A DNA stretch of 64,000 bases from Tetraselmis striata (lineage: Eukaryota; Chlorophyta; Chlorodendrophyceae; Chlorodendrales; Chlorodendraceae), in contig VCJN01002299.1 of NCBI GenBank assembly GCA_006384855.1, positions 85,699 to 149,698 of the forward strand. Direction: 5' to 3'. Shown here piece after piece: positions 24,066 to 58,104 of the stretch. Below the pieces are notes generated by a model, which did no database searches, was not told the DNA's origin, and saw nothing but the letters and a program-made list of their open reading frames with translations. Each line of letters begins with the position of its first letter. The first letter of the stretch is position 1. A program made the position numbers and the translations under genes.

Positions 24066-26267
24066 ATGCATGCATATGTGCCACGTGTGCGTGCAACGCG
24101 TGTGGCCGCGTTTTTGATGAGATATGCACTTACGCAGTGGTGTTTTGCTTACCTGTTGGAAGGCTGCGCGGCAGCGGCACTCGCGCTCGCTCTGCTGCTG
24201 GCCGCCCTGTTGGTGTTTGCTGCATGCGCCGCTGATGATGGATCGACGAGCCCGACCGACTCGGCCGTCTCCGGCACCGTGATCGGCATCGATCTTGGGA
24301 CCACATATTCGTGTGTCGCCGTCTACAAGAACGGGCGCGTGGAGGTGATCGCTAACGACCAGGGCAACCGGATCACGCCCTCTTACGTCGCTTTCACGGA
24401 TGCCGAACGCCTGATCGGCGAGGCTGCCAAGAACCAGGCGACGAGCAACCCGGAGGGCACGGTGTACGACGTCAAGCGGCTCATCGGGCGCCGGTACGCT
24501 GACAAGGAGGTGCAACGCGACCGCAAGCTCGTCTCGTACAACATCGTCGACCGTGATGGGAAGCCCAACGTGCGGGTGTCGGTCAAGGGCGAGGCAAAGA
24601 CGTTTTCGCCCGAGGAAGTCAGCGCCATGGTGCTGGGCAAGATGAAGGCCACCGCGGAGGCGTACCTGGGCAAGCCAGTCAAGCACGCCGTCGTCACGGT
24701 ACCCGCGTACTTTAACGACGCGCAGCGGCAGGCCACCAAGGACGCGGGCGTGATCGCCGGCCTCTCCGTGGAGCGCATCATCAACGAGCCCACCGCCGCG
24801 GCACTCGCGTACGGCCTGGATCAAAAGGGTCCCGAGAAGAACATCCTGGTCTTTGACCTCGGCGGCGGTACCTTCGACGTTTCGGTGCTGACCATCGAAG
24901 ACGGCGTGTTCGAGGTGCTTTCCACCAGCGGCGACACCCACCTGGGCGGCGAAGACTTTGACCAGCGCGTGATGGAGTACCTGATCAAGCTGGTGAAGAA
25001 GAAGCACGGCAAGGACGTGAGCAGCGACGCGCGCGCCAAGCAGAAGCTGAGACGCGAGGCGGAGCGCGTCAAGCGCGCGCTGTCGACCCAGCACCAGACC
25101 CGCGTGGAGATCGAGTCGCTCGCAGAGGGCGTCGATCTGTCGGAACCTCTCACCCGCGCTCGTTTCGAGGAGCTCAACGCTGATTTGTTCAAGAAAACCA
25201 TGGGACCGGTCAAGCAGGTACACCAATTATGAGCACGGACGCCCAGTGCATGCGTTGAGTTTATGCGACTCGGTGAACGCGCGTGGTCGTAGTGGGGAGG
25301 ATCCCACTTATACAGCAGCGAAATGACAGTGCTTATCGCTGCACAGGCGCTAGCGGGTGCAAAGCTGAAAAAGTCGGACATCGACGAGATCGTGCTTGTC
25401 GGCGGCTCGACGCGCATCCCGAAAGTGCAGCAGCTGTTGAAAGAGTTTTTCGACGGCAAGGAGCCCAGCCAGGGGGTCAACCCAGACGAAGCGGTGGCGT
25501 ACGGTGCGGCGGTGCAGGGCGGCATCCTGTCGGGCGAGGGCGGCGAGGACGTGAGCGGCGTCATCTTGCTGGACGTCGCGCCGCTTACGCTGGGCATCGA
25601 GACGGTTGGCGGCGTGATGGCGAAGCTCATCCCGCGCGACACCACCATCCCCACCAAGCGCTCGCAGGTCTTCACCACCAACCAGGACCAGCAGTCCACG
25701 GTCTCCATCCAGGTCTTTGAGGGCGAGCGCGCCATGACCAAGGACAACCACCCGCTGGGCAAGTTCGACCTCCAGGGGATCCCCCCAGCCCCGCGTGGCG
25801 TGCCCCAGATCGAAGTGACCTTCGAGGTGGATGCAAACGGCATCTTGAGCGTCAGCGCGGAGGACAAGGGCAGTGGGAAGAGGGAGAAGATCACCATCAC
25901 CAACGACAAGGGGCGCTTCAGCAAGGAAGAGATCGAGCGCATGGTGGCGGAGGCTGAGGAGTACGCGGAGGAGGATCGGATGGCGAAGGAGCGCATCGAC
26001 GCGCGCAACACGCTGGAGACGTACTGCTACAGCACGCGGAGCCGCATGGAGGACGAGGACATGAAGCTGGGCAAGGGTGACAGGGAAGCGGCAGCTGAAG
26101 CGGTGAGCGAGACGCTGGAGTGGATGGAGGACAACCCGGAGGCAGAGGCGGAGGAGTATAGCGAGAAGCTCCGCGAGCTGCAAGACATATGCGGTCCCAT
26201 CCTGGCGCAGGGGCAGCCGGGGGAGGATGACAACGGCGACGATCTGGGAGACCTCGACGAGCTGTAG
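24066..26267 (+). CDS. BIP: ER Hsp70 chaperone BiP/GRP78
   Basis: Two exons, 24066-25217 and 25347-26267, with a 129-nt GT-AG intron that restores the Hsp70 phrase ...[24 protein letters not shown]. Up to 690 aa. The ATPase domain has the phosphate-1 loop [17 protein letters not shown] (about residues 74-90), the [12 protein letters not shown] loop and [13 protein letters not shown]. The substrate-binding domain has [22 protein letters not shown]. The leader contains a hydrophobic run ([21 protein letters not shown]) fitting a signal peptide; translation may start at the ATG at 24117 rather than 24066. The C terminus is acidic and ends LDEL, an HDEL/KDEL-like retrieval signal, so the ER lumen is the likely site. 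Family role: ATP-driven folding and regulation of UPR sensors. The stop is TAG. It converges on the IRE1-like remnant about 1.1 kb downstream. Confidence 0.95.
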
Positions 26268-28825: not shown

Positions 28826-30385
28826 TCAGCGGGGCAAAATGATTATAGCACGAGTGTCATAAGGTGATTCCGGGCGTTGAGACTCAAAATGTTCGAGAAT
28901 TGGCAATACTGATTCGTCGTACGGTGGATTTATTAGTGCAGTATGACGAATTGCTGAAGTGGAGGTAAAGGGTTTATCCTTAGAACGGTACTCAGGGCAA
29001 ACAGCGTCAAACGCTGAGGCACAACAAGCGTCCAGAGTTATGGGACCATATTCAGAGTTTAGTCGAGACATTTCAGTTTTATCAAAACGAATGGAGTCAG
29101 GTGGGCAGGCAGTTGGTCGGTCAATATTCTTTTTAGCCTGCCGTTGTTTAGCGTACTGGCGTTGACGGAACAGGCGAATAGCAGAACGTTTCTCAGTACG
29201 AGACAAGCCCTCGGTTGAATTGTCCGCAGGGATGGCAAAGTCAGCGGCAGGACCTACGAATTTACTCGCCGGTGAGCGCCACTGGTTCGTACGACTCGGT
29301 GGCAATACCGAGGAGGCCTCAGCGTGCGCATCAGCCACTAGGGCGGCGGTAGCTGGGCTATTCTCGTCCGGATGCAGTGCCATTGGAGATCGGGCCTCAA
29401 GAGGTCGGGGGATAACACGGCGGAGCTGGGACAAATTCGATTGAATTAAAATTCGAACGCCTGACGGCATACTCCGCCCCAACCCGTCATTGGTCATTCA
29501 GGTTCATGGCCTTTAGACCCTTAGAGGTTTTGGTGGCAGCCACTTTAGTTTGCCAAGCCTTTTTGTCAGCGAGGCTAGTCTCAGGGCAGACCATAATAGA
29601 ATGGCCTGCTTTACCACAGCCAGAGCAGATTCCAGTATAACGGCCATATCCATCCAAGCCGGGAATCGGCCTAGTGCATGAGCCAAAGGCCGTTGGCACG
29701 GCGCTTGGCAACAGCAGCCATAGCGGCGAACTCGGCGTCGACAGCTTCGAGGTGGCGACGAAGGGTGTCCAGGGTTGTTAGCTCCTCGCGGGCGACCATC
29801 GCTGCTGCCTCCACGCGGGCGTTGGTCTGCTCCGGGAGCTGAGACAAGATGAGTCCAACCATAGCAGATTCGTTGGGGCGGTCCGCCTCGGGGAGCAGCT
29901 GGAAGGCTCGGACGATCTTGGACGCAAGATCGACCGAGTTGCGCGCCACAGACGGGTTGATGGGGGCGATCTTGAGGTTCTTGACACGCTTGTGGACGAG
30001 GGAGTTAGAGGTCGCGCAGCCGTGCAGTTTCTTGATAAGCTTGCTCCTGAAGTCGGAAGATTCGGCGCAGTAGGTAGCAAGGGTGATGCCGGTGGTCACT
30101 TCACGGTCGACAGAAGTCGGGGAGTCGATGAGGGCACGGTAGAGGACTCCGGTCTCGTTGTCGGAGTCGAACTCGCGGAGCAGCCATGCTCAGAGCAGGG
30201 GTCCAGTAGAGGCCGTGGACAGTTTCGGCAATGGTAGAAAGGAAGCGGTTGAGAGCAGACAGGTCACGACGGTCAGAGATGCGTCAATCGACAGGGATGT
30301 CGTTGGCAGGGGCGCGAATAGCGAACTTGGAGAGCTCAGCTTGGACAACACGAGAGACCGGGTCGATATCCATAGGTTGAGTCAT
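28826..30385 (-). pseudogene. Decayed retroelement gag plus start of pol with Dam-like domain
   Basis: Reading on the minus strand from an ATG at 30385 (MTQPMDIDPVSR...), the frame shifts after about 33 codons, resumes as a helical gag-like segment (30099-29671), shifts again and gives a zinc knuckle CSGCGKAGHSIMVC (CX2CX4HX4C) near 29620. A further frame (29497-28826) runs through a Lys/Arg-rich stretch into EYGPITLDACCASAFDA and ALINPPYDES...AIIILP. The NPPY motif and flanking pattern match phage-type (Dam-like) adenine methyltransferase domains. The fragment stops there; no protease, RT or integrase follows. It is a dead 5' part of a retroelement that, like the Ty3 element at 51833-58529, placed a Dam-like domain directly after gag. 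Confidence 0.6.
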
Positions 30386-37311: not shown

Positions 37312-38210
37312 TCAAAATATGAACTTTGATGAGATACTGATCCTATTGATGCCCCTTTCACGCAAGCTATCTAGCAACCACTGTCGTTGTAACGGTGGCG
37401 AGCATGCCACATCCTTCAGCTCGGCTTTAAAGCCAAATTTAAAGCCAAATTTGGTCATGTCGTTGAATAAACCTTCGGGCTCGTCGCATGGCTGCTCATC
37501 GGACATGTCAAAGGTTGTGCCACGAAAGCGACTGGAGCTGCCATCCAAGAATCTCTGATGACGACGCATACTCTCCCCCACTGTGTTGGCATCAAACCCA
37601 TCTTGATCATCTATGTTCATGTTGTGCATGATCATGGTAGCCAGCACCATTTGATTGAAAAGCGAGAGCGCAATACCAGATGGGCAGTGGAACACTCCCC
37701 AACGCTTCTTCCAGACTCCAACGGCGCGCTCAATGGTGATGCGGCAGCGGCTCAAGTAGAAATTGAACGCAGTTTCAGACTCAGAAAGATTCACACCAGG
37801 GAGTGGAGTCACAATCTGCATGCTGGTCTTGTACGCATCATCACATGCCAACCAACAGTGTTGTTGGGACAAAGGGTGAGTGTGCAAATAGCGCGACATG
37901 CCAAGAGTCTCCCATGCCAAGGCATCATTAGTGTTGCCGGTTGTCTTCGCTGCCGCTCATCGACACCGCAGGCGTGCATCGCGCATGGCTTGAAATACCA
38001 CAGCGAAGCAGGACTTGCAGTTTCTCATGTCATTGGTGTTTTCAGCCTCACCGTAACGATGCAACTCGACGGGTAAAACTATGCCATCGACTTAGCCTGC
38101 GCACCCGGACATTGTGCGTCTCTCCGCTGAGCTCCCAGAACTCCTTGGCCATGGCGTCCCCGACTTCTCAGAGTCATTGAGTGGGGTGTTGATCCATTTG
38201 TCTTGGGAGT
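37312..38210 (-). pseudogene. Harbinger/PIF (HARBI1-like) DDE transposase, broken
   Basis: The minus strand gives VDGIVLPVELHRYGEAEN..DMRNCKSCFAV with the first catalytic Asp region, then MRDARLRCR followed by a TGA, then KTTGNTNDALAWETLGMSRY (second Asp). An intact 202-codon ORF follows, with ESETAFNFYLSRCRITIERA and a W..RWGVF helix typical of the PIF/Harbinger C terminus. At least two in-frame stops lie between 38090 and 37930. A cut-and-paste transposase relic. No terminal inverted repeats identified. Confidence 0.72.
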
Positions 38211-38454: not shown

Positions 38455-40262
38455 ACCCGAACCATACTATCCATGTATAAAGTTTTAATGAAGGTAAGCA
38501 TATGACCCATACCTCCTATGACTTGTAGTTTTAGGAATAAAAGCTCATGAGGCACGGTGTCATATCTTCATAAAGTCAATAAAACCCGTGTACGTGGGTA
38601 GACTTGCCGCTTGGCGAGGAGCCGCGATATCTAACAAGCTGGCGACTTGCATGGGGCCCTCCTCATTCCGCATAAAACCCGCTTGCCAACGGCGGATTAT
38701 CCCTTTAGCTTGGCAGACGTCTTGCCAGCGCTGGGCAATGACGGTCATAAGGAGTTTCATAGCAGCACCCATAATCGAAATACCCCTATAATTGTCCATA
38801 ACGGCCGCGTCGCCTTTCGTGGGCACCGATACTATGGCCGAGCTACGCCACTGCTGGGGGATATATATAGTTCTTAGTCAATATCCCGTTAATTAAGGTC
38901 AGCAATGCCTTGCCAGAATGGCTATTTGGGGCGTATATCGCCAATTTTAAAGCCTCCGCAGTAATCCCATCCTGCCCCTGGGCCTTCTTATTTTTAAAGG
39001 TCATAAGAGCCTTGACTAGTTCCTCCCGTGTTAGTTGCCCATAAATCCCGTTTAGTGCGGGGGCAATGGGTGGCGATGTACCATGGCGGCGTTCCCACGC
39101 CGCACGGTATATCGCAACCCGTTGTGCTAGGGGGTGGGGGTCACGCATATCAGCTCCCGATAGTGCCGCGCCCAACACGAATTGATTTCGCCCGGTTCGG
39201 TATGAAGTACCCCCGATACCGGATCGCTGAACTGGCTGGTCGTTTGCGCCCTCGAATGAACCATGCCCCTTGCGGAGAGAGCGCGCCCACTTACAGAACT
39301 CCCGTCTCCCACCACCCTTCTTAAAATCCTGAACCGCTTTTTGCACGGCCCGCTCCCTCTGGCGGCGGCGGTTATTACGTACTAGTGTCCGGGCCCTAAG
39401 CCGTGCAGCAACATAATGTGCCGACGCTAGAGCGGCATCCCGAAAGCCCCTAGTCTCACGGCACGCCATAAAGGCCATGCGCCGACGATTAATCGCACCT
39501 AGGATAGACCGTTGCAGCGGCGGCCCTAGGGCTTGGTAACACCTGGGCTTGGTAAAAGCCCCTACTAACCCCACGCGCCGCCGACCATATTGCCTGGATA
39601 AAGTGGTCGGCGCCGGTGTCTAGGGATCCCCCCCTCCCGAGGGCCCGCCGTCTACAGGCGGGTCATCTAGAGGGATGAGCACCGCGAACGGATTAGCGGT
39701 GACAAAATCGTGGAACGGCTTCGACCATTCAGAGGGAGAGTCACCGTGGGCCGGTTTGGGAATGGACCTTGCAGACAAGCGTTCATGCAGGGGAGGTGGA
39801 CAAGTATCCTCACGGATGGCGCCCACGGGGAAAGAAGACAAGACATGGAAGTGATCGGAGGTGTCCCAAGAGTAGTCCACCCATGCCGAGGGCGAGAGAG
39901 GGGGGGGGGGGGTATGGTGGGAGGCCATGCGATGGAGTGGTCGAGAACGCGGCAGCTGCCCCTCCGACAAATACTTCGTTCGCGCGCCACTGCATCCCGC
40001 GATCACACGGGCTTACCGCCGGGAAGGCACCGCCACCGCCTCAGTAGAGCCGTGAACTCCCTTTCATCCATGTTCCAATCTCCCCCCACCACGATCATAT
40101 CCCTCGGATAACTCGTACGAAGCCGCGCCGACTCTTCGCGCAGGCGGTTCCCCTGTGAGCCGGTGGGCAAATAGGCCGAGATAAATATATAGTGGCCGCG
40201 GAGTCACTGCAACCTCCCCCCACAAGGACACAGGTCCAACATGGGTGGGGCGCGCCGACAGG
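38455..40262 (-). mobile_element. Fragment of an APE-endonuclease-type LINE
   Basis: The minus strand reads THVGPVSLWGEVAVTPR, IFISAYLPTGSQGNRLREE, then DMIVVGGDWNMDEREF (the GD.N endonuclease motif) and SDHFHVLSSFP (the SDH motif). A linker with VQKAVQDFKKGGGRREFCKW and TREELVKALMTFKNKKAQGQ is followed by the RT start (MDNYRGISIMGAAMKLLMTV) and motif A FIDFMK|YDTVPHELL, where the frame shifts near 38562. It breaks off near 38455, before motif C. It is 5'- and 3'-truncated with several frameshifts, and from a different clade than copies A-C. Confidence 0.75.
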
Positions 40263-42336
40263 TGAGGGCGTCATGCTTATGCATCCTTATTCATTATTGA
40301 TTCATGTAGCGAGTAGTGGCCGTACGATTTATCGGTCGGTAATCGTACAGTCTCGATGAAAAGTTTATTAAAACGCGAAGACAATGAGCAATAAGCGGCG
40401 TAGCACCAGTATTATCCATACTATATACCTGTAGTCCTACCGTGACGGGGCGGCGGCGGCCGTTGCACAGCAGCATCTGCCACATCACAGCGACATGCCG
40501 TGGCACGGAGGAGCCGAGTTTCACTGTCCCTACACGAGTGCAAACCGATAAGGTTATCTCGCTGTCGCAACTGCGTAGGCAGCTGCCAGCCGTCGCGCAG
40601 ACAGGATGGTTGTTAGGCCACGAGATAAAGGCGCTCCCGACGACAAGGCGACAAATCCTTCCAAGACATCACCCCTCGCGGCGCCCTCTCGCTCCCAGTC
40701 TTTCTGAAGTTTAGGGCGACCGCATTCAGGCGACCTACTGACGTACGCAAGTACGGAGCGGCTGCTGGTGCGCAGACATTGGCGCAGGCCTGTCTGGGGT
40801 ACGGAGCGTTACATCTCTCTCTGATTGCCAGCACCAGTCCAAGCCTACTTTTGGTCGGCGGGTGGAAGGCAGTGCTAACCAGCTGGCTCTCTGCAACATG
40901 TCGCAGGGTCAGAATTCAGATGGGCTGCAGAGTTTCCAGAGGCGCTACTCTTGCACCCGTAGTTGAAGAATCTGCTATACAAGACCGCCGCTTCTATGCA
41001 ACTTCATCGGAAAAGCTTCGGGCGAAACCGGTCACTTTCGTCTCCACAGCATTTTGGGTTGAGCTGCGAGAAGAATCTGACTATGTAGGAGCAAGCCAAG
41101 AGGTAGGAGTGCCCACCACCAATATGCGAGCTGCCTGACACCGCAGGCACACGTGCTACGCCACATAGCATATGTACTACACCATATAGCGCATGTGTGT
41201 TTCCGTTACGATTGAAATGACTTTGAATGTGTGCATGAACACATTGTCATCACCAGTGTTGTATAATACTGAAATTCGTGTTTTGCATTCGGCATACATA
41301 GCTTCACATCTTCACTCCTAACCAATCGGCTGTGACCATCATGTAATAGGCTGTGGAAGTCATACATTGAAAATCAGGAGTGATAGTGTGGCGGATTGAA
41401 GGTTTTGTTTTTGCTCGCTTCGTCCCTCCCCCTCCCGCCCTTTAATCTGAGCATTGTGCAATCAAGGACATAATGAGGCATTTTGTCATCATTGTGGAAA
41501 GTTCTTGACAGCACCTGCTTTCTTTACAATGTCAAACAGCCAGCGTTACCCCTCATCCGAGAATGTCTGGAAATTCTACGAAGCAAAAAGAGGTGATGCG
41601 GTCTCGACTGCTCAAAAGACAGTGTCTGATTTTCCAGAAACATGCATTCCACGCTCCGCCATGTATGCAAAGACGGTGGTTGCAGTTTCATCACGATTTC
41701 TAGCAAACATCGAGTTCTCAGGTATACTTCGTCGATGATACACAGTTTCGACACGTTGGATTGCGTTGGATACTTGTCTGTCATATTTCGACGCAGCCAT
41801 AACGAAGTTTTTGATATTGATAAAATGCATATTTAACACACTGCCGGGGCAGTAAAACAGCAATTCATTGAAAGCAGCACTGAACTTCTGGGGATGGCAC
41901 ATAACAAACATCCCCATCTGTTAGGGCACGGTTCTGCGATGATGGGCCGGTATCAAACATTTGTATTCTAGGTGCAAGGCCGCTCAAGATTGCCCGGCAA
42001 CTCGCAATAAAATACATACTTCAGCCCAGGTGCACCCAGCAGCACCAGGAACATTTGTAATGCTGCGGTTAGACATGATATCGGCAAATATCTTTGGGCT
42101 CGTAGCGGTGCCAAAACGGGCTTTGATGCTGCTGCTGCCTCGTTCACATGTATCTATCCATTAATTACTCATAGATTGAGCGGACCGATGCAACCTATTG
42201 CTATACATCCATACATTCATGCACACACCGCAGCATATATTTGAGACCCGGGTTGTGCCTTTTATAGTTGCTTGTCATGTGGTGTGCAAGTATCGTCTCT
42301 GTGGTTCCCCAGGCGCCTTCAAAGTAGACCCTGCAG
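40263..42336. other. Upstream region of the kinesin-HET gene; possible 5' exon
   Basis: Mostly without recognised content. One open stretch on the plus strand (ending ESDYVGASQE) stops at a good donor GAG|GTAGGA at 41102/41103 in phase 0, which would fit the phase-0 acceptor at 42336, so it may be an upstream exon of the kinesin gene. 41454-41738 (+) and 41612-41917 (-) are open but unrecognised. Confidence 0.3.
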
Positions 42337-45300
42337 GTGATTGAGTACGTTGCGCCATATTTTCATGTGGTTTGTCAACAGATCCTCAGTTTGAACAACA
42401 CAGAGTCCCCACCAGTGCGTCAAGGGTATCTCCAAGACGCCTATCGCAAGCAATTTGGGCCGGTGTCCCCAGCCGATTCAAGGCTTTGGCAAAATGCTAG
42501 GGCCAAAAAGCGCGCCAATGGACTTCAACCGGCACTTCAACCTGCACTTCAACCGGCCTGGAATCAAGGCCTCAGTTCCACAGCAGCCGAGACTCCAGCT
42601 TATGACCAGCAGCCAGGGCAGCCGCAAGTGGTGAAGAGTGATAGCCAACGGAATGGAAAGCCCCAAGCTGATCCTGGAGACCATGTCACGGAAGACAAAA
42701 CCGATGATGTCCGGACGCAGATGAAGAGTGTCCATGAGCGGTCGTCCGCAGCAACACCTGATGTGATGGTGTATGCCAGGATCCGTCCAGTTCTTGAGCA
42801 TGACGTAGGCGCAGGTCGCAATCTCCAAGAGAATCAGACCGTGGCTGTGACGCAGTCCACAAGCAACGCCTCGACGCTGCTGCTCGACGAGCCTTTTGGA
42901 GCTGACTACAAGCCACCGAAGCTCTTCAACTTCGACCATGTGTTCGATGGCACCATAGGTAACAACGGTGTCTTTCAGGAAGCTGTGCTCCCAGCGGTGC
43001 AGCAGGCCGTGAGACGGGGCGTCAATGCTGCAGTAATTGCCTACGGACAGACGGGCTCGGGCAAAACTCACACCTTGGGCACAACCGAAGCGTTGCTCGG
43101 GGACACCACCAGGAAAGGGGTGGCTGCGCTCTCTGTCGAGGCGCTGTGGCGCGAACTTTCACTTCGTCAGCAAGCAGAGGAGATGCACGACAGCACTGCC
43201 AGCCACAAGATCGAATACAAGATAGCCTGCAGCATGTACCAGGTGTACCTCGGCAACGTGTATGACCTGCTTGCCGAGAACAGCACCAGAAAGATGATGC
43301 TGGCTACCAGGGAGCGCGCCAGGAACGAGGTCGACGCGGGGGGCATGGAGACCGTGGCATTCCATCTGTTGAGGCATGGACGCGGCAAGGACGCAAGCCG
43401 TACTGAGCTTACCAAGGTGCCCGTATCTAGTCCGAGTGAAGCAATTGCCGTGTTGCGCACTGGCCTCCAAAAGCGAGACACAGGGTTTGTCATCTCCACT
43501 GCCATGAATGAGACATCCTCCCGCAGCCACTGTGTCATCAGCCTCGAAATCTGCCGCCGCTACTCAGTGGACAGCAGCGAATCGCCGTTGTGCTCCCTGT
43601 TGGTGATAGACCTCGCTGGCAATGAGCACGGCAAGACCCGGCTGGATGCCATCAGCAGATCAACAAAGGAGTCCGGACCAGAGGTCTCTGACAGCCGAGA
43701 TCCGGGCGTTCCCCGCACTGACACGCCCCCCCTCCGGGACAAGTCTGGTGACTTGTCCACAGTCTGGGCACAGGCAACCGATATCAATGAGTCCCTCCTA
43801 TCTTTGATGCGCTACTTGCAGCTGGCCAGCAAGAAATACAGCACCAGGCAATGTCCTGGCTCTTGGGTGCTGAGAGGCCATGCTCTCACGCGAATGCTCC
43901 ACTACCCGCTGCAGCAAGCCAAGATTGTCATGATCGGCACCCTGAATCCCCTTCACCAGCACCGTGTTTTGACAAAGCGGACGCTGACCTATGTGCAAGG
44001 GGCCAAGTCCATCACGAACAGCTCCGAGTGCCACCAGAAGCTCATGATCGAGGCCATGGCGCTCCACAACGTGAAGTTTATCAAACTCACCGCCATGGAG
44101 ACGACAGAGGAGATCCTTCGCTCCGATGTCGCGATGAACCCTGCGCTATGGGGGAAGAAGCGGGAATCCTGCGAGGACCCTACCTGTGGCAACTGCCTGC
44201 TGCACGTCGCCCCGCCTCTGCTGCGCCTCCACCAGCTCCGTGCGGATGTGGTGAAGATATTCTTCTCACGTGAGCCGCCACCCCATTGCTTGGCGCATCT
44301 CTTCTCCCCCCCCCCCCCCCCCCCCCACACACAAATCTTGCCCCTTTCTCTGTGTTTTGAGGGGAGGATCTTTGGCAGTGACATTTCTCTTTCATGCAGA
44401 TCGCTGGCTGACACCTGAGAAGCAAGCCTGGTATCATACAGCGCACCCAGATGCCGAAGGGCACCCGAAGTGCAAGCTTCTGGTGTCAGCGGTGCGCAGG
44501 ATGCAGAACTCCCACTGGATACCGCCCTCGTCGGAGGTGGTGGTCTGGGCAGATTTTAGCTGTATGAATCAAGATGGCAACCCTCGTGAGGAGCTGGATG
44601 GCCGGCTGGTGGAGATCATCGCAGGCTGTGACTTCGTGCTGACATGCGTTGTGGACCCGGAATGGCAAGCTTGGGGCGATGGCATGGACCGCTCCCAGCT
44701 CCAGGGCGGCGATGACGAAACGACCGACCCGTTCACAGTGTACGGAGCAGCAGGTTGGCAGGACTATGCTACCCGGGCCTGGTGCCGGCTCGAGGCTTTC
44801 ATCGGGGCCACCGCAGCCCTGCCGCCTCACAGGACGCTGAAGCTGGGAGAGGAACTGAAACGCAAGGCCTCGAGCAGGCGGCCTCACCTCCTTTATGGAA
44901 CGCGCGAGCACGCGATGGGCGAGCTGCCCATCATTCTGCCGGTCATGCGCCCGAGGCACTTCAACACGTACCATCCCGGAGCAGGGGGCTGTCGCCCCGA
45001 GGACAAGCCGTGCATTAACGGCTACGTGGATGCGCTCTACGAAATCAACGCAGAATTGAAAGAGGTGCGCGCCCTCGATGCAGATGCATGGCCTCTACTG
45101 CCATCTCCATTCATGCCGCGCACTCTGGTGTTCATGGAGTCACTGGTGTTGTGCTGCTTTGCCAGGTGGCGGACTTTCCGCTGCATGCAGCTCTGAAAGC
45201 CGGGCGCGGGCTGAAGGAATGTCAAGAGTTCTTGCAACGGGATCCAGCGTGCGCCAAGAAATCTGACTCTGCAGGCATGCTTCCCCTTCATGTTGCTGCT

Positions 45301-47128
45301 GCTGAGAAAGCTGCTCTGGAGGTTATGCGACTCATTGTGGATCAGCATCCGGAAGCCAAGACCATAAGAGACAAGCAGGGCTGCTTTCCACTGCATCATG
45401 CCAAACAGTCAGGCGCCGAAGGCAACATTCTCGATTTGCTGCGAGACCCAACCATCGATGAGGTAATCCGTTTCTTCAAATGCCCATTCAAACTTTGCCC
45501 TGTGTGCATGCTGCAGTATTCCTTGTAGTCGCAGCGAGGTCGGCCTGAGCAAATCGTACTTGACTAACGAGCTCACGCTGCGTACCACCTGAAATCTGTA
45601 GGACCTATTCCGACTCCCACCACACCCATCAGACCGCGGCGTGCCAGTGCGCTGGTTCCTGGAGACCTTCGTGCCTCTTGTGGAGGAAACATTGGGAGGG
45701 AAGTTGGATGACGCGCTGGAAGATCTCACTACCGAAGAGGTGGTTGATGGGGTGGTGAAGCCGATGACCGCTGACAAGCGGTGTACCTTCGTGGAGCTCG
45801 TAGACGGCTGTCAGCCGCCTGACTTCGAAGTGTCATTTGCACGGAAAGCGCCCTTTCGCGAGTTGGTGCATTGCCTGCGGAAGCGTTTCCAGAGCTCGCT
45901 GGACAGCGTCGTGTGGATTGATGCCATGGCGCTCAACCAGCATTCGAGTGGACAACTGTCACATGAACTTCCGTTGGTTGCTGAGAGGATGGCGCACACG
46001 CGGGGCATGCTAATGGTGGCTGACTCGAAGGGCATCTATTTGGCGCATATTTGGGCATTGTTCGAGGCGTTTGCGGCGTACAAGGCGGCCGGCTGTCGCC
46101 TAGGTGACCCTGGGAAGTTTGAGATCATGCCTTATTGCCTGAACATCGGCGATATGGAGTTGGCGTCCATGATGTATGGCATTCAGGCTGAGAAGGCAGG
46201 AGCGTACAGTCAAGGGGACAAGGAAATGATCCTGGCAGAGATAGAAGCTTGCGAGGGGGGAGTTTCAAGGTTCAACACATGGTTGAAGGCCGCGCTGCGC
46301 AACGCAGTGGGGCGCATGGTGGAGCAGTACGAGCCCGGCACCCCAGACCACGCGAACCAGATGAGCCTTGCTGGGCGACTCCACATGAAAGGAGGGGATT
46401 ATGAAAGAGCGCAGCCCCTGCTTGAGGATGCGCTGGAAGAGAGGAGGGCCCTGCTTGGCGAGGCTCACCCGGACCTGCTGACCTCCATGGTCGACCTTGG
46501 GGATGTGTTCCTGGCCAAAGGCGACGCTGCAGCCGCAGAGCCGCTGTGCCAGCAAGCACTGGAGGGCAGACGGGCCGCGTTTGGGGAGGCCCACCCGGAT
46601 ACGCTGGCATCCATCCAGACACTCGCTGACGTATGCCTGGCCAAGGGTGACCATGGAGTCGCAGAGCCGCTGTGCCAGCAAGCGCTGGAGGGCAGAAGGG
46701 CTGCGCTTGGCGAGGCCCACCCGGACACGCTGGCATCCATCCAGACGCTCGCTGACATATGCCTGGCCAAGGGCGACCATGGAGTCGCAGAGCCGCTGTG
46801 CCAGCAAGCGCTGGAGGGCAGAAGGGCTGCGCTTGGCGAGGCCCACCCGGACACGCTGGTGTCCATCCACGGCCTCGGGTGTCTATACCTGGCCAAGGGT
46901 GATCATGCAGCTGCCAAGCCGCTGTTGAAGCAGGCATTCGAAGGCAGGCAGGGTGCGCTCGGTGATGTGCATCCGGACACGCTTGAATCATTGAGGAGGA
47001 TGGAGGAGGTGGAGGAGGAAGATGATGAGGACGAGGAGGACGAGGAAGAAGATGACGATGATGAGGAGGAGGAGGAGGAGGAGGAGGAGGAGGAGGAAGA
47101 TGATGAGGAGGACGATGACGAGGAGTAG
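42337..47128 (+). CDS. Kinesin motor-HET-ankyrin-HET-TPR fusion protein, at least 1473 aa
   Basis: Exons 42337-44269, 44400-45064, 45166-45462 and 45602-47128 join in phase (the first begins at an acceptor, so the N terminus is upstream). Residues 143-565: kinesin motor with VYARIRP, P-loop AYGQTGSGKTHT (235-246), NETSSRSH (391-398), switch II DLAGNE (425-430) and ALTRMLHYPL (516-525). About 45 residues are inserted between switch II and INESLLSL. Residues ~646-866: HET-like core VVWADFSCMNQDG and WCRLEAF. ~867-965: ankyrin-like (DFPLHAALKAG, MLPLHVAAAEK, CFPLHHAKQSG). ~966-1170: second HET-like core VVWIDAMALNQHS. ~1215-1430: 42-residue kinesin-light-chain-type TPRs (A.GEAHPDTLASIQTLADVCL). 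Then a Glu/Asp tail from a GAG/GAT repeat. HET domains act in fungal nonself recognition; ANK/TPR arrays bind partners. Its function here is unknown. TAG stop. The intron at 44270 has a poly-C run. Confidence 0.82.
46536..46960 (+). repeat. Coding 126-bp tandem repeat (TPR units)
   Basis: Near-identical 126-bp units starting about 46536, 46662 and 46788, plus a diverged one at 46914, encode 42-residue TPRs. The DNA identity of the middle units suggests recent duplication or conversion. Confidence 0.9.
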
Positions 47129-48719
47129 GAGGGTGGGGCACCCGCAGATCAGCTTTTATGTGCGATAATCGTGTTGTTATGTTATCAAGTATGGCTACAA
47201 TCATGAACATGCCCTGACTGGCACCCTGAATAATTTAGGTAACAAGAACAGCGTGGGGCGCTTTTTGGCATCGCAGCGGTTGCATGGCTGGCAAAGTGAT
47301 TGGTGGATGATGGAATGGGCTTTGTGGGCTCCGCAGCAACCTAGGCCGCTGCAGTAGCGTCAGCAAATGCGCACTCATGCCGATATGTGGCTTATGCCAC
47401 TGCTTAGAATTTTTGGCGCACATGTCATCACGAGGCAAGAACATGTGAGGACATCGCCGCTCTTGCAGGATAACAGCTTGTCGGCAACCCATAGTTTACA
47501 TAGCCAGCAGCAGTGGGCCAGGCGGAGCGCCGTGACCTGCCCCTAAATGCTCGCAACTTGTGGGGCTCTTCCCCGAAGCTACTTGGTCCGCGTCAGTCAA
47601 CTCACAGCAGCAGCAGGCCTGCCACCTGCTTCATCACATTGTGCATCAAGGGGACATCAAGGGGATATAAAGCTGCTATGGACCTGCACCTCTATACCAG
47701 GCCGATGGTCGCAAAACGCTAGTACTTGAAAAGAACCGCAGGTACATGCCCAGCTTTTTCAGGCGGTACCCGATACCTGTCGATCTTGATCGCACGGTGG
47801 CGGTACTCGCAAAGTGGATAAACTCTTCATGATCAATGTACTGAAATTAAGATGGACCAACAGGAATATTGTTAAAAGTCACAAACTCTGTCTGTTCTGG
47901 TGCGATGATTTTTATTTGTCTGTTTGATTGTTTGTCTGTTCTGTCTGTCCGTACTTTGTACTTATCCGCAACATATCTGTATATTCGCATTATGCTCCGT
48001 TGTGTATTCGCGAGCATATCGCTTCGCAATACTAAAACACGAGTACGGGTACTGATGCGAGTGCGCTCGTATGACGTGGTAGTCGCTATTATGTACGAGG
48101 TAATGCAAAATTAGTAGCGCGTGCAGGTATAGGAGCCTTTCGTGTACAAATAAGGTACGTACGGGTACAACCTCCAGGTACGCAACCAATATCCGTAAGA
48201 GTACTTGTACTGGTACCTATACAAGTGCATGCGATAGTCAGACAGACCTCATAGCTAATCAAGATTGTATTATTACATGAGGGCTTTCACAAAAGCGCAC
48301 TACAAACAGAACTAACAACAACTTAGAAAGGTTGCCAGCAAAAGAGAGACACAAGCCTTAAACCAAGGTCGAGCAGGAGGACAGGGAGCCAAGAACCAAG
48401 AAGGAGACAAGGGAACCACGAAGTCACTTAGCTGCCAGGAACCAAAGGGACCCCCGCCTCGGGGTAGGCTATCAGCCGCGGCGAGGACGCGTGCAGCCAA
48501 TGACCCGGGTCATAGCAACACATGCCGACGAGCGACGCGAAGCAGGCGCAGGAGCACCATCACGTGCCGCACGCGCGGCCGCGACCCCGCCAAGAACGTT
48601 GTCTGCATGTGCCATGTTGATGAGCAAGGAGAAACGGCGGCGCCACGCATACAAGAGCTAATCAAGATAATCGTCATGTTGGATGCCGGCGGTCCCGAGC
48701 GTACGCTAACAAGGTAGAC
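47129..48719. other. Intergenic region, no gene seen
   Basis: No exon recognised. Scattered GTACGGGTAC-type motifs near 48035-48230. Confidence 0.55.
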
Positions 48720-52764: not shown

Positions 52765-55700
52765 TTAGCACAGGGTTGCTGAATAAACTTCAGATGAGAC
52801 GCCTTTCAGCTTAACTCTGTCGCCGGTCTTGAATGGTACGGGTAGTCGTTTACGATTAGCTGCAGTCTGCATACGAGTTTGAGCCTCCAGTACGCAATCA
52901 TGCGCGAAGCGATGAAGCTCCTGTACATACTTGACGTGTTCCGGAAGAGCTCGAGTTGGCTCGGTTGCGAGTTGAGTAGTAGCAGGTGTAGTCGGCTCGA
53001 ATCCCAAAGTCGCCTTGAAAGGGGACATAGTAGTCGAAGTCGACTGAGCAGCGTTGATCGCAAACTCCACGTTGGTGAGGTGGTTGACCCAATCATCGTG
53101 CAGGGGGTGCACGTAGCAGCGTAGCACTTGCTCCCAAGTTTGGTTAGTCCGTTCCGTCTGGCCATCGGTTGCTGGATGAAAAGCTGTAGAGATGTTCAGC
53201 TTAGTACCCATGGTCTTGAACATATCTTGCCAGAATTCCGACATAAATCTGGGGTCTCGGTCAGAGATGAGTTTAGCCGGTAGGCCGAAATGACGAAAAA
53301 CTGAGCGATGCATAATCTCCGCCAGGCCTTCAGCAGTAACTGTCTTCGTAGTTGGCTCAACAATTACTCGCTTTGACAGTAGACATACGAAAATCACTAC
53401 TGAGTCATACCCCTGGCACTCCGGAAGATCTGTGATTAAATCCAGGGATATTACCTCAAATGGTCGTGACGGTACGTCATGGGGCTGAAGTAAGCCGTAT
53501 GGCTTATGCCGGGCCGCCTTAGTACGTTGACAGGTAGGGCAGCGTCGCACGTAGTTAGTGACAGTCTGTTTCATACGGGGCCACCAGTACAGTTCCACAG
53601 TACGCGCCAGTAGTCGTCGTCCTCCTGGGTGTCCAGCAGTAGGCGCGTCATGTAGTTCGTACAGTGCTCGTTGTCGCAGGTCCGCCACATTTGGTACGTA
53701 AAGTCGTGAGCCGTAGGCGTACAGTAGACCATTACTGTGACGTACTAGCCAGGATGGTAAAGCTTTCCGCGATTTCAGGTACTCGTCGGAGTCATATGCG
53801 GTCTTGATTTCGTCATAAAACTTGTTGTCCGCCTGTAGTCGCGACTCCATAGCAAATAAAACTGAATTTATTTCGCAGTCAGCCTCGTCTTCTGACCAGT
53901 TGTTCAGCAGATCTAGCTTCTGTAGCGCATCCTTCAAGTCGGGTCGCCGAGAGAGGGCGTCCGCATGATTGGCAGCTCCTCGCTTGTAGACGATGTCCAT
54001 ATGTCGTTGGTAAGGCGCAAACACTTGCAGCCATCGTACTTGCCGCGTCGACAAATCGCGTTGGCGAAAGAAGTGCCGTAGCGTGTCATGGTCGGTGATG
54101 ACCGTAAAGCCCGCCGCTCCATCAAGGTAGCATCGGAACTTGATGAGTGCATCACGAACCGCTAACAACTCTTGCTCATGTACCGGGTAGTGAACTTCGT
54201 GTTTGTTCATCTTGCGTGCATGGTACGCGACAGGTCGAAGTCCTGAGCCTTGATCTTGCAGCAGCACAGCTCCCACTGCAAATCCAGAAGCATCTGTATA
54301 CAATGTGTAACGGGCGTCCGCAGATGTGTCCGGTATACTCAGTACAGGTGCTCGTACCATTGCGTCCTTTAATGCACGAAACGCCGCATCAGCACGAGGC
54401 GTCCACACAAACTCCGGTTGATTCTTCGTCAGGTCATGTAGTGGCGCCGCAATAGCCGCGAAGTTATGGATGAACTTGCGGTAATAGCCAGCAAGGCCGA
54501 GAAAACCTCGTACGTCCTTTACTGTCTTCGGCACGGGCCACTGTTGAACTGCTTCCACCTTCCGGGGGTCCATCTTGATCTGTCCTGCTTCGACGATATG
54601 GCCCAAAAACTCCACGCTAGTACGGCCGAACGAACACTTCGACAGCTTGATATGCAAGTGGTGTCGTTGCAACTCCCGTAGCACCAATCTGATGTGCTCG
54701 AGATGCTCTTCAGCTGTCTTGCTGTAGATCAGCACGTCGTCCAGGTATACCACGCAGAATTTGCCGAGATATGGGCTCAAAACACGGTTCATCATAGTCT
54801 GGAATCCAGCTGGGGCGTTTGTCAAGCCGAAAGGTAACACACAGTACTCGTAGAGTCCATAGTGTGTCCGGAACGCTGTTTTGTGGATGTCTTCCGGTTT
54901 AATTCGTACTTGATGGTAGCCTTTGTACAGGTCCAGAGTACTGAAAATAGTCGCACCATGCAATGAGTCCAATAATTCGTCGATGCGAGGAAGCGGGGTC
55001 CGGTCTTTCTTCGTAAGGTCATTCAATTTACGGTAGTCCACACACATACGCAGAGTGCCGTCTTTCTTACGCACAAATAAAATTGGGGCGCCGTAGTTTG
55101 ACTTGGACGGACGAATCCACCCTTTTGCCAACAATTCCTCCAGTTGTGACCGTACCTCTTGCAACTCCGCTGGTGACATACGGTACGTTCGTTCCTTGGG
55201 GGGTTCATCACTCTCCAGGTTGATCTCAAAGTCGAACTCGCGCTCCGGTGGCAGGTCAGTAGGCTCCGCGATGATGTCTGCAAACTCCATAAGGGACTCC
55301 TTGAGCTCCTCGGTCCACTCGGTCGACTGGTCCGTGCGCAGCTCAGCTACCGCATCGAACACCTCGCGTACCGCAACAGCAAACAGTTCCTCGCCGCGAC
55401 TCTTCCTCAGTTCCTTCGCCATCTTAGCCGCGTCCAGGTGGTAAACCGTCGTAGGTACTGTATACTGTTCCGCTGTAGCAATGTGTTGTCCAGTCTTCCG
55501 GTGTTTAATAATTTTAGCAGTCCAGTCGATGTCAGGATTAACTGTTTCCAGCCAAGGTTGTCCGAGAATAATGTCGAATTTCTCCAGGTCTGTAACTATA
55601 GCGTCCAATTTATAGTCGAAAGCTCCTACGGTAAGTACTTCGCTCCTCAGCCGTTTGGTACTGGTACTCATACTGCCGTTCGCCAGTTTTATACGGTGTT

Positions 55701-56778
55701 TTCCTCCGGATACTGTAGGGCACTGATGCAATTGCACCCATTCGGTACTCGCAAAATTTTCGGTTGCACCAGAGTCCACCAGTATTTTACAGTGTCGTCC
55801 TCGCAATTCGCCAGTAATAGTCAGCAGTCGGGTACCACTCGGTGAAGATACGTTGCACAAACGCGATGTGGAGTCTTCGCCAGGTAGTCGGACGTTACGG
55901 TTGACATATTCATCAATTTGTTCGCCGAAGCTTTCGTACCGTAGTGGGTAGCGTACTGTCTCCGTCTCCAGATAACCCGTACTTCGTGCCTCCAATAATT
56001 TCTTCCATGTTGTCCATAGTGCACGGTTCAAAGGGGTTTTCGCAGGTACAGTATTACGACGAACGCGATACAGGTATACAGGACACCGGTTGTCTCCCGT
56101 CCGCTGAGTGCCGAGGTACCGTAGATTGCTCTCCTGTACCCGGTACCCAGTTTGCTCGAGTAATCGTCGTACTGCTGTTGTCTCCGGCGTCGCGTCCGTG
56201 TCGCCGCGCTTGCCTTCTGGAAACCAAATCAGTCCGCTGTCTTCTACAGTCAGAAGCACTCGTCTTCCATCGGTTACTAGAACCTTCGAGTGCGTCCACT
56301 CAGGCTTCGGTGGGGTTCTCAGGTGCTGCGGTAGAAACCGTACGCCGGCGCCATCGTCAGCGTAGATCTGTGTCGCCCATCGAGTGGGGCCAACATCTTG
56401 TCTCGCACCTTCTATGCCATCGTTCGTTGGACACGTAAACACAGAAGTCTCCGCTGGCAACTCATCCACCAGACGAAAATTTCTAAGTAGTCGAAACCAC
56501 GGCTTACGCGACCATTTTGGGACCACAATAATTGCTCGTAGATGCGGATGCAATAACTTCTGTCGAAGGTAGTGGCCCAAAAATTCTTCAATTCGGTCAT
56601 ACGGGGCATTTAGCCAAATACGCCGATATTCTCCGAGATCCTGTTCCTGAAATGGGCGCGTCGGACAGCAAAAACTACCAGAAACTTGAGAATTCAGGCC
56701 GTCATTATCGCAAGCTCCGTCCAGGTCGCAGGGTCCGTATTTCTTCGTGTACTCGTGAAATAATTCGCGATGTACCAT
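52765..56778 (-). CDS. pol: Ty3 Pol polyprotein with Dam-like and Nudix-like N-terminal domains
   Basis: 1337 codons from an internal ATG; the frame is open back to the slippery site. Residues ~10-115: Dam-like methyltransferase fold (YGPCDLDGACDNDGLNS, IWLNAPYDRIEEFLGHYL, IIVVPKW). ~160-245: Nudix-like (KVLVTDGRRVLLT, GLIWFPEGK, PETTAVRRLLEQTGY, CPVYLYRV). ~334-342: aspartic protease VDSGATENF. ~520-700: RT with VVYLDDVLIYS (678-681 YLDD). ~826-840: RNase H TDASGFAVGAVLL. ~1050-1100: HHCC zinc-binding (ELHDAPTAGHPG, CPTCQ). ~1120-1220: DDE integrase (SLDLITDLP, ISDRDPRF, HPATDGQTERTN). In the Dam-like domain the usual NPPY is NAPY, and the Nudix box REx2EE is RRx2EQ, so catalysis by either is doubtful. 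The ORF ends early at TAG 52765, after a one-base shift near 52802. Confidence 0.9.
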   Translation of the reverse strand: MVHRELFHEYTKKYGPCDLDGACDNDGLNSQVSGSFCCPTRPFQEQDLGEYRRIWLNAPYDRIEEFLGHYLRQKLLHPHLRAIIVVPKWSRKPWFRLLRNFRLVDELPAETSVFTCPTNDGIEGARQDVGPTRWATQIYADDGAGVRFLPQHLRTPPKPEWTHSKVLVTDGRRVLLTVEDSGLIWFPEGKRGDTDATPETTAVRRLLEQTGYRVQESNLRYLGTQRTGDNRCPVYLYRVRRNTVPAKTPLNRALWTTWKKLLEARSTGYLETETVRYPLRYESFGEQIDEYVNRNVRLPGEDSTSRLCNVSSPSGTRLLTITGELRGRHCKILVDSGATENFASTEWVQLHQCPTVSGGKHRIKLANGSMSTSTKRLRSEVLTVGAFDYKLDAIVTDLEKFDIILGQPWLETVNPDIDWTAKIIKHRKTGQHIATAEQYTVPTTVYHLDAAKMAKELRKSRGEELFAVAVREVFDAVAELRTDQSTEWTEELKESLMEFADIIAEPTDLPPEREFDFEINLESDEPPKERTYRMSPAELQEVRSQLEELLAKGWIRPSKSNYGAPILFVRKKDGTLRMCVDYRKLNDLTKKDRTPLPRIDELLDSLHGATIFSTLDLYKGYHQVRIKPEDIHKTAFRTHYGLYEYCVLPFGLTNAPAGFQTMMNRVLSPYLGKFCVVYLDDVLIYSKTAEEHLEHIRLVLRELQRHHLHIKLSKCSFGRTSVEFLGHIVEAGQIKMDPRKVEAVQQWPVPKTVKDVRGFLGLAGYYRKFIHNFAAIAAPLHDLTKNQPEFVWTPRADAAFRALKDAMVRAPVLSIPDTSADARYTLYTDASGFAVGAVLLQDQGSGLRPVAYHARKMNKHEVHYPVHEQELLAVRDALIKFRCYLDGAAGFTVITDHDTLRHFFRQRDLSTRQVRWLQVFAPYQRHMDIVYKRGAANHADALSRRPDLKDALQKLDLLNNWSEDEADCEINSVLFAMESRLQADNKFYDEIKTAYDSDEYLKSRKALPSWLVRHSNGLLYAYGSRLYVPNVADLRQRALYELHDAPTAGHPGGRRLLARTVELYWWPRMKQTVTNYVRRCPTCQRTKAARHKPYGLLQPHDVPSRPFEVISLDLITDLPECQGYDSVVIFVCLLSKRVIVEPTTKTVTAEGLAEIMHRSVFRHFGLPAKLISDRDPRFMSEFWQDMFKTMGTKLNISTAFHPATDGQTERTNQTWEQVLRCYVHPLHDDWVNHLTNVEFAINAAQSTSTTMSPFKATLGFEPTTPATTQLATEPTRALPEHVKYVQELHRFAHDCVLEAQTRMQTAANRKRLPVPFKTGDRVKLKGVSSEVYSATLC

Positions 56779-56918
56779 CCAGTCGCTGAAATCCTTGTGG
56801 AGGAAATCAGGCCTCAGTGTCGTTCGAGGATACGAGGGCTGTACTTCTGTAGTCTCGCGAGCCGTTTTAGGGGACAGTCCTTCACCCTGTCGCGCGCCGC
56901 GCGCGGCCGACTCACGTC

Positions 56919-58079
56919 TTAGTTTCCCGGCCGGGTCTTTCTGGGTCGATATTCAGAAATCTTCTTCTTCTTGCTCGGGCACGCGGACGCAACATGACCT
57001 TTCGCCCTGCAGATAAAGCAGCGACCTTCCTTCTTAAATCTCTCAAACTCCTCCTCGGTCAATCGCCGCGCCATCAACAGGTCGTCTTCTTGTTCTGTAG
57101 CTTCACCCTCAGCACTGCTGTAGTACTGCTCGTCGTCGTCGCCATCGTCGTCCATGATGTTTAGGCGCTCGCGACGGATCTCGCGGTGCACATCTGTCTC
57201 CCGCTCCGCAGCTTCAACAGCCAGGGCTGCCTGTACAGCTTCTGCCAGGGTCTTAGGGTTTTTCAGGGCAACTTCCTTTCGAATATGGGGTTTCAGTCCG
57301 CGCTGGAAGTCATGTACATTATCTTCCTCGTGACGATGGGGTAACTCCAGTAGTTGCTCGCGGAAATAATTCGCGTACTTCTGTACTGTAGTCCGCTGTG
57401 TCGCGCGATCCAGATTGATACGAGCTTGCTTCGCCGGTGTACGTCCACAGAATTCGGTGATTAGTGCCGCCTCCATGTGCGTAATACCGGTAAAACCGCC
57501 GCCAATTTCGTCGTGCGTACTCGCCACTTGCGCGTACCACCACTTGGATACAGGTCCGTGAAAATAGCCAGATGCCCAGTACACGCTACGAGGTTCCTCC
57601 GGGTTTACATTGTGATATTTCAGGTAACCCCGTGCATGACGAAACCAGTTCCGTAGCTCGTCGATATTCGTAGTCGATAGCTTCTCGATCTTCGCTGGTT
57701 TCACATCGCTCGGCATGAGCCCAGGCATGTCGCTGGTCCGGGCAGAACGAAGCTGGTCTCGCATCTGCTGCTCTACAACTCGGCTCCGGTTCACTCGGTC
57801 GTCGAAATGACTGAAGCCTTGTCGCACGTACTCGTCCAAGCGGCGAATCTCCGCCGTTGCCGCCGTTGTAGCTTGCGCTACATCTTGCATCCTCGCTTGC
57901 TCCGTCGACATAGTCTCGACTCGGTCGGCTAGTCGTTGAAGCATGCTCATCATGGTTGCGAGGGTCGGTTGCGTGCCCTCTTGACCTCCTTCGAGCGGAA
58001 TCGGCTGTGCTTCGCCGGCAGTGGCCGCTACCGGAAAGCTTCCGCTGTCCTCAGGTGGTGTCTCTCCTGGTGTAGCCAT
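56919..58079 (-). CDS. gag: Ty3 Gag (capsid/nucleocapsid), 386 aa
   Basis: Starts at an ATG 40 bp inside the 5' LTR. An acidic and Gln-rich N-terminal segment is followed by a coiled-coil-like region (MSMLQRLADRVETMSTEQAR) and a capsid-like domain (WFRHARGYLKYHNV, YFHGPVSKWWYAQV, YANYFREQLLELPHR) typical of the retrotransposon gag family. The zinc knuckle is CFICRAKGHVASAC (CX2CX4HX4C), near residue 357. It assembles the particle that packages element RNA. The ORF is intact. It ends ...RPGN at TAA 56919-56921, immediately after the slippery heptamer used to reach pol. Confidence 0.92.
   Translation of the reverse strand: MATPGETPPEDSGSFPVAATAGEAQPIPLEGGQEGTQPTLATMMSMLQRLADRVETMSTEQARMQDVAQATTAATAEIRRLDEYVRQGFSHFDDRVNRSRVVEQQMRDQLRSARTSDMPGLMPSDVKPAKIEKLSTTNIDELRNWFRHARGYLKYHNVNPEEPRSVYWASGYFHGPVSKWWYAQVASTHDEIGGGFTGITHMEAALITEFCGRTPAKQARINLDRATQRTTVQKYANYFREQLLELPHRHEEDNVHDFQRGLKPHIRKEVALKNPKTLAEAVQAALAVEAAERETDVHREIRRERLNIMDDDGDDDEQYYSSAEGEATEQEDDLLMARRLTEEEFERFKKEGRCFICRAKGHVASACPSKKKKISEYRPRKTRPGN
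56922..56928 (-). promoter_or_regulatory. -1 frameshift slippery site GGGAAAC at the gag/pol junction
   Basis: On the minus strand the gag frame reads CCG-GGA-AAC-TAA, giving the X XXY YYZ heptamer G GGA AAC in the correct phase, directly before the gag stop. The -1 frame is open from here without a stop to the pol ATG at 56778 and beyond. A self-complementary GCCGCGCGCGGC lies 14 nt downstream (56907-56896) and could provide the stimulatory structure. GGGAAAC is a known heptamer in some retroviral gag-pro shifts. Confidence 0.75.
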
Positions 58080-58104
58080 CTTTACGTCGCTTACCGCTGT
58101 CTAA

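Follow-up and report, generated by a model that had tools for sequence, protein, structure and literature searches.

Does the green alga Tetraselmis striata encode a kinesin motor, HET-like domains, ankyrin-like (ANK) repeats and TPRs in one polypeptide, and what might such a chain do? The question is raised by positions 42337-47128 of a 64,000-nucleotide stretch of contig VCJN01002299.1 (assembly GCA_006384855.1, positions 85,699 to 149,698, forward strand), called the window below. To our knowledge, motors and signalling domains of the innate-immune type reside in different proteins. We read the locus as a single four-exon gene for a motor, an intact HET-like domain 1, an ANK stretch, a degenerate HET-like domain 2 and five TPRs, in which a HET-like signalling domain would be carried on microtubules; our probability for this reading as a whole is roughly 0.45. 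Comparison with relatives indicates that the motor and the first HET-like domain form a conserved protein family and not a gene-calling artefact, because three database proteins (P0012, P0013 and P0016, from at least two lineages) share the pairing and because the predicted splice rebuilds a block found in two of them, VVKIFFSHRWLTP.

A four-exon reading frame and its modules

Four exons on the forward strand (42337-44269, 44400-45064, 45166-45462 and 45602-47128) give an in-frame reading of 1473 residues, and residue numbers are those of this reading counted from 42337. The introns, of 130, 101 and 139 bp with donors at 44270, 45065 and 45463, have GT-AG borders and keep the phase at every junction, and reading through them in frame leads to stops at 44418, 45196 and 45528. 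These results bear out the four exons joined in phase of the first-pass annotation; its kinesin motor with nucleotide-binding motifs and its ankyrin-like repeats were likewise recovered. The modules lie as follows.

42721..44269, + strand: exon 1 from the first in-frame Met, with the motor and the start of HET-like domain 1 (Met, codon bias)
42760..44013, + strand: kinesin motor domain, residues 142-559, borders approximate (PF00225, E 7.7e-48)
43039..43068, + strand: P-loop AYGQTGSGKT, residues 235-244 (sequence)
43507..43530, + strand: switch I NETSSRSH, residues 391-398 (sequence)
43609..43626, + strand: switch II DLAGNE, residues 425-430 (sequence)
44059..44269, + strand: N-terminal part of HET-like domain 1, residues ~575-644, ending in VVKIFFS (alignment to P0012, P0013, P0016 and MORN-fused relatives)
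44270..44399, + strand: intron 1, GT-AG, phase 1, within the conserved block VVKIFFSHRWLTP (sequence, alignment)
44400..45064, + strand: exon 2, remainder of HET-like domain 1 with motifs intact (alignment to relatives)
44546-44575, + strand: WADFSCMNQD core of HET-like domain 1, residues 694-703 (sequence)
44774-44794, + strand: RAWCRLE of HET-like domain 1 (sequence)
44879-44908, + strand: RPHLLYGTRE of HET-like domain 1 (sequence)
45065..45165, + strand: intron 2, GT-AG, phase 0 (valine of P0016 at the same place)
45166..45462, + strand: exon 3, ankyrin-like stretch (Ank_2 E 9.1e-5, below cut-off)
45463..45601, + strand: intron 3, GT-AG, phase 0 (splice borders)
45602..47128, + strand: exon 4, probably degenerate HET-like domain 2, TPRs, acidic tail and stop (52% identity to P0001)
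45602..46351, + strand: HET-like domain 2, residues 966-1215 (alignment to sister copies)
45833-45844, + strand: SFAR in place of SHTW, HET-like domain 2 (alignment)
45914-45943, + strand: WIDAMALNQH core, residues 1070-1079 (sequence)
within 46046-46066, + strand: HIWA in place of RAWC, HET-like domain 2 (alignment)
46355..46984, + strand: five 42-residue TPRs of kinesin-light-chain type (Pfam, sequence)
46985..47128, + strand: acidic C-terminal tail, a GAG-type trinucleotide array (sequence)

Splicing of exon 1 to exon 2 appears to go beyond chance, since the junction restores 13 residues, VVKIFFSHRWLTP, that stand identical and unbroken in P0012 and P0013. No frameshift or stop was met across the 1473 codons. 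With a codon-bias table made from a single HSP70 gene of 695 codons, the predicted frame was the best-scoring of three in all four exons (exon 1 from 42721), the bias being weakest in exon 3. Exon 4 cannot start by itself, being preceded by a stop and having its first Met inside HET-like domain 2. Neither TGTAA nor AATAAA occurs in 44200-47900, and the 64-kb window gave no tRNA or Rfam match. The fused gene is a single copy in the 224-Mb assembly, with no allele or second copy there, and the database entry P0015 is a mechanical reading of the same locus in a short, unspliced form.

The beginning of the gene had been set at 42337 and needs correction. No start codon stands at this position; an in-frame Met first occurs at codon 129 (42721), and the codons of 42337-42720 lack the bias of coding DNA (-0.53 bits per codon in frame vs. 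-0.36 in a neighbouring one). For these reasons Met129 at 42721, giving a predicted product of 1345 residues, is the more likely start, and an additional exon may lie upstream of 42721. The first HET-like domain, previously placed from exon 2 onwards, begins in exon 1 at about 44059 according to the alignments.

The motor scored 163.6 bits with the Pfam Kinesin profile (gathering score 29.3), and its P-loop, switch I and switch II are all intact. At E ≤ 0.001 it matched 154 distinct PDB sequences, the best 60 of the 154 being kinesins, and several families were near-equal with no clear best (KIF3B 1.9e-18, Klp61F 4.5e-18, KIF4 1.3e-17). The N-terminal motor with its three motifs is thus of the kinesin superfamily type, whereas the long insertion that follows switch II, ahead of the next helix, the tail of HET-like domain, ANK and TPRs, and the want of a family preference set it apart. 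HET-like domain 1 comes directly after the motor, a position that a neck coiled coil occupies in many kinesins. For the ANK stretch, the Ank_2 match reached 23.4 bits against a cut-off of 27.3.

Motor-fused relatives and the HET likeness of domain 1

P0012 and P0013 were found with the post-motor part as query, and a profile search added P0016. The first two share 78% identity, and in both the latter half of a kinesin motor runs unbroken into RVKVVKIFFSHRWLTP...AHPDAEGHPKC...WYDFAC; they match the fused protein at E 4.6e-58 and 2.8e-55, with 35% identity by BLAST and 46-47% in multiple alignments, and span only about half of HET-like domain 1. The match of P0016 covers residues 118-868, that is the whole motor and the whole of domain 1 (E 2.7e-55, 26% identity), and taken by parts it amounts to 26% for the motor (E 9e-18) and 30% for the domain (E 3e-39). 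The proposal that motor and HET-like domain belong to one gene is upheld by this pairing. In P0016 a conserved EINAEL stretch is followed directly by a valine (GTN codon), at the place of donor 45065, which would fit an intron at the same position; P0016 also holds a 51-residue stretch resembling a retained intron.

Features of the domain-1 family are F[FI]SHxW, HPD, WxDxxCxxQD, RxWCRxE, RPHLLYGTRE and PIILPPL; in the fused gene the exon 2 part also carries HRWLTP and HPD. The profile search returned 27 proteins, namely one piece of the locus itself (P0015), three with motor and domain, nine with domain and MORN repeats, three short pieces with the domain alone, and 11 matching the TPR or ANK part. 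A search of the same genome with domain 1 yielded four hits at E ≤ 0.01, namely the fused gene, L010, and the distant L011 and L012. The L010 locus (L010:1030-2430, minus strand) holds the domain and MORN repeats in one open frame (MORN E 2e-23). The HET-like domain of such SHxW and MORN proteins (P0020-P0026, P0028, P0034; L010) is 31-36% identical to domain 1 of the window, but MORN repeats replace the motor. In an unrooted domain tree the four motor-fused sequences stood together, apart from the MORN-fused ones including L010 of the same genome, with bootstrap values for the split of 92 (18 rows) and, once P0034 and P0030 are left out, 80 (16 rows); the grouping of the fused gene with P0012 and P0013 has 99 and 97. 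One old fusion of motor and HET-like domain would be the simplest reading of these data. A viral origin of the pair was considered and set aside, no relative having been found among the viral contigs scanned for it.

How close the domain is to the HET domain of fungi was judged from motifs and profiles. Like the fungal HET domain (PF06985), it has S[HY]xW, WxDxxxxxQ and RxW blocks in the same order (SHRW, WADFSCMNQD and RAWCRLE in the window); the fused protein differs in falling below the Pfam cut-off, in an extended C-terminal block (RPHLLYGTRE..PIILP) and in being joined to a motor. Of the 16 sequences in the domain-1 alignment, seven matched PF06985 at E ≤ 0.1, the best of them at 0.0024 (18.6 bits), and domain 2 of the window did so at E 0.046 (14.5 bits vs. 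a cut-off of 22.5, residues 1052-1091). Profile comparison with hhalign gave E 9.6e-8 and a probability of 94.3 between the domain-1 and the domain-2 (exon-4-type) families (reversed control 0.1, E 0.6); earlier, unedited alignments had given E 1.7e-4 and 49.6. Against nine HET loci of the same genome, the domain-1 family reached E 7.8e-4 (reversed 0.56, kinesin profile 0.49). Overall, the reversed controls lay at E 0.56-0.62 in three family comparisons and the kinesin profile at E 0.19-0.49. The two domains thus match each other clearly and resemble HET weakly, beyond controls, and we call them HET-like and not HET because the similarity to HET is weak and below the Pfam cut-off. For the two WxDxxxxNQ cores that the first-pass annotation had taken as HET-like (residues 694-703 and 1070-1079) this means that both keep the label, their families matching each other, while the second is probably degenerate.

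Neither NCBIfam nor PADLOC matched P0012 or either of the two HET-like domains, and a search of PDB by sequence with domain 2 gave a single match, a nitric oxide synthase at E 0.33, of no use. The predicted model of P0020, in which domain 1 is joined to MORN repeats, has strands at 77-82, 129-134 and 161-166 and helices at 108-123, 152-158 and 201-212, with low confidence between them.

Genuine HET proteins, for their part, are numerous in T. striata, with 46 matches to PF06985 in the genome at E ≤ 0.1, of which 42 are marked as exceeding the cut-off; the loci read (e.g. L051-L060) have SYRW and W[IM]D..Q blocks, most of them also an RxW block. Several long reading frames at these HET loci have, by eye, hydrophobic, membrane-like N-terminal parts. 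At C1126:16290-24984 (minus strand) a below-cut-off HET match (20.1 bits) lies ~4 kb upstream of same-strand kinesin exons, and may represent either a further link between HET and a motor or an independent gene. According to excerpts of PMC4986451 and PMC10197012, homologues of HET occur beyond the fungi, in green algae among others, and HET is similar to TIR.

HET-like domain 2, its sister loci and the surroundings

By alignment, HET-like domain 2 is a degenerate relative of HET-like and TPR genes of the same genome. P0001 (Tetstr1/442187) is 52% identical to the fused protein from residue 968, just two residues into exon 4, to the end of the TPRs. The genome contains 49 matches to domain 2, nine of which, besides the fused gene, are at 50-55% identity; TPRs are present in these nine close copies (L014-L022) and in L023-L024, and in L026 below the cut-off only. 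Unlike the fused gene, none of the 29 further domain-2 loci (L014-L042) had a motor, domain-1 or ANK match within 1.5 kb on each side, and in the control the motor query found 8/8 kinesin loci of the same genome (L001-L008). The published model P0001 is letter-identical in residues 156-760 and 812-1467 to two neighbouring genes, L022 and L020 (C2091, domains 221359 and 227508), and merges these adjacent HET-like and TPR genes into one chain.

The sister genes also differ from domain 2 in their signature residues, SHTW and RxWC being intact in all ten aligned sister rows. In the 11-row alignment, where P0001 and the pair L020 and L022 stand for the same genes, the ten other rows all agree at 78 columns; domain 2 of the fused gene keeps 50 of them and changes 28, with SFAR for SHTW, MALNQH for FAFNQH and LAHIWA for FTRAWC among the changes. 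The middle block is best kept, and the third retains only W and E. By the same count L023 changes 17 of 67 and L024 nine of 59, the remaining rows 0 or 1. Since 28/78 otherwise invariant residues are changed, including SHTW and RxWC, the domain is probably degenerate, with its signature lost. Compared alone with its own family, it is still recognized by hhalign at E 6.1e-59. P0001 begins with MGCSASK, and similar readings occur in frames upstream of three of the 11 loci scanned (L016, L021, L024); on the consensus, we take such an N-terminus to be a lipid-anchor signal. As a trait of all sister genes it was rejected, with 3/11 loci showing it and five further stretches without it.

The TPRs are matched by Pfam TPR_12 at E 6.9e-44. 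Between units 3 and 4 the DNA shows 98% identity, which points to a recent duplication. The array of 42-residue units is like that of kinesin light chain, as first noted; it differs in sharing one predicted chain with a motor, and the sister loci show no motor nearby. As evidence for microtubules, however, such TPRs fail, given the 0/29 sister loci with a motor within 1.5 kb and the TPRs of a fungal NLR that were modelled on kinesin light chain 2 (excerpt of PMC4986451). The five TPRs do resemble the superstructure-forming repeats at the C-terminus of NLRs, but no NB-ARC or NACHT occurs among the 19 Pfam families matched by the fused protein at E ≤ 1, and the NLR-type framing first given to the gene was dropped.

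Elsewhere in the window, a Ty3/gypsy retrotransposon occupies 52768-58100 (minus strand; gag 56922-58100). Ahead of the protease, its pol frame encodes a NUDIX domain, which passes the cut-off (E 1.2e-5), and a Dam-like stretch of the adenine methyltransferase kind, which does not (E 4e-5). A second Dam-like fragment at 28829-29497 (minus strand; E 0.0023, below cut-off) is possibly the relic of a similar element. There is also an HSP70/BiP-like gene of at least two exons at 24048-26267 (plus strand; first part HSP70 E 1.1e-145, second by eye) and a DDE_Tnp_4 (PIF/Harbinger-type) transposase piece at 37315-37956 (minus strand; E 9.1e-14).

Weighing the readings

If the locus is one gene with a signalling function, the motor would place HET-like domain 1 on microtubules and carry it to its site of action, while the TPRs and ANK stretch may bind ligand or cargo. 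The degenerate domain 2 might serve as a scaffold, or as a decoy or bait for active HET-like and TPR proteins. When motors become crowded on a microtubule, or when cargo is bound, the intact HET-like domains could then be clustered and signalling switched on. TIR domains are switched on by oligomerisation, and the HET-like domain is assumed to behave alike. A bolder version, which we think rather unlikely, sees a self-propelled HET/TIR-type receptor: a HET-family domain would have been welded to kinesin in green algae and their relatives, and in Tetraselmis a HET-like and TPR tail would have been captured, its lipid anchor exchanged for the motor and the captured domain left as silent bait.

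Several results weigh against the signalling gene proposed here. Its structure was read from genomic DNA and from database proteins that are mostly metagenomic gene calls, and the codon bias of the ANK exon is weak. Of three protein database searches, one returned the model of a paralogue and none a published gene model of the fused locus; the database is uneven for eukaryotes, every search was bounded in words and length, and in two of them only candidates sharing most words were scored. The three motor-fused relatives show no ANK or TPR, their records stopping before that point, and P0016 has Q for E at one commonly acidic site of domain 1. Domain 1 of the window itself had no Pfam match at E ≤ 10, every HET match among the members of its alignment was below the curated cut-off of 22.5 bits, and the hhalign probabilities against HET were 24.8 for the domain-1 family and 8.1 for the domain-2 family (E 0.0043). 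Domain 2 of the window alone gave E 0.018 and a probability of 2.6 with the domain-1 family (reversed 0.21), and E 0.011 and 3.8 with HET (reversed 0.57). Structure added little: the matches listed in fold searches (Foldseek, VIA) of the P0020 model were filled by MORN repeats, so that the lack of TIR or HET structures among those listed carries no weight in either direction, and domain 2 predicted from a two-row alignment had a predicted local distance difference test (pLDDT) score of 44.6, which is unusable. Lipid-anchor N-termini were absent from the other eight of 11 sister loci and from five further upstream stretches. The MORN partners of domain 1, finally, would equally fit a plain cytoskeletal or membrane role.

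The main rival is a transport kinesin with light-chain-like TPRs. Here heavy and light chain would be united in one polypeptide that moves flagellar or membrane cargo without immune-type signalling, and the SHxW (HET-like) domain would be a mere protein- or membrane-binding module. We regard this as a real possibility, if a tentative one. The TPRs are of the right 42-residue type, domain 1 is MORN-fused in nine of the 27 proteins found and in L010, and the MORN portion of one of these relatives gave matches to axonemal and MORN1 structures; TPR and MORN are among the domain abbreviations in an excerpt of a 2006 kinesin survey (PMC1434745), and loss of the signature in domain 2 is expected if binding alone matters. 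Yet the conserved blocks are kept in domain 1 of both the fused gene and P0016, which suggests more than a passive linker, and the TPRs are not light-chain specific, as the sister loci of domain 2 show no motor within 1.5 kb.

Two further explanations concern the gene itself and appear weaker. The locus could consist of two head-to-tail genes, one for motor and HET-like domain 1 ending at 45196, the other for ANK, HET-like domain 2 and TPRs starting at an ATG in intron 2 or in an unseen exon. Exon 2 is indeed open on read-through to 45196, the exon 3 frame is open upstream with a possible Met, P0015 has the unspliced form, domain 2 with TPRs forms a gene of its own at other places in the genome, and the four-exon model was read from genomic DNA. 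The two genes would, however, overlap each other; intron 2 has good GT-AG borders with phase kept at all junctions, the GTN codon of P0016 follows the EINAEL stretch at the place of the donor, and 40001-48500 contains no match to the N-terminus of P0001 (best E 0.42). The lack of TGTAA or AATAAA at either end (44200-47900) also speaks against two genes, but is not decisive. All in all, we hold this to be improbable. An exon-shuffling chimera that is losing its function is harder still to sustain: the 28/78 altered sites of domain 2, the weak ANK exon, the low-complexity acidic tail with its GAG array and the single copy in the assembly would suit such decay, whereas an open frame of 1473 codons that scores best of three in each exon, intact motifs in motor and domain 1, and a kept TPR consensus would not.

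The single gene that we favour has no counterpart so far in its complete order. Motor, HET-like, ANK, HET-like and TPR follow one another only in the fused gene among the sequences searched, the records of the relatives ending before the ANK position; the first-pass annotation's remark that this order is undescribed thus stands. Excerpts of PMC4986451 and PMC6652019 contain no kinesin-HET or kinesin-TIR fusion, and none is named in titles and abstract beginnings of papers returned by broader literature searches. A precedent is the mammalian NLRP3 inflammasome, which uses dynein via the adaptor HDAC6 according to an excerpt of a review (PMC8578992). The activity of HET domains is still in need of characterisation according to part of a 2023 review (PMC10197012). 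A conserved single chain of motor and HET-like domain makes the gating of HET/TIR-type signalling by microtubule transport directly testable, and offers a biochemical handle on HET domains in a culturable alga.

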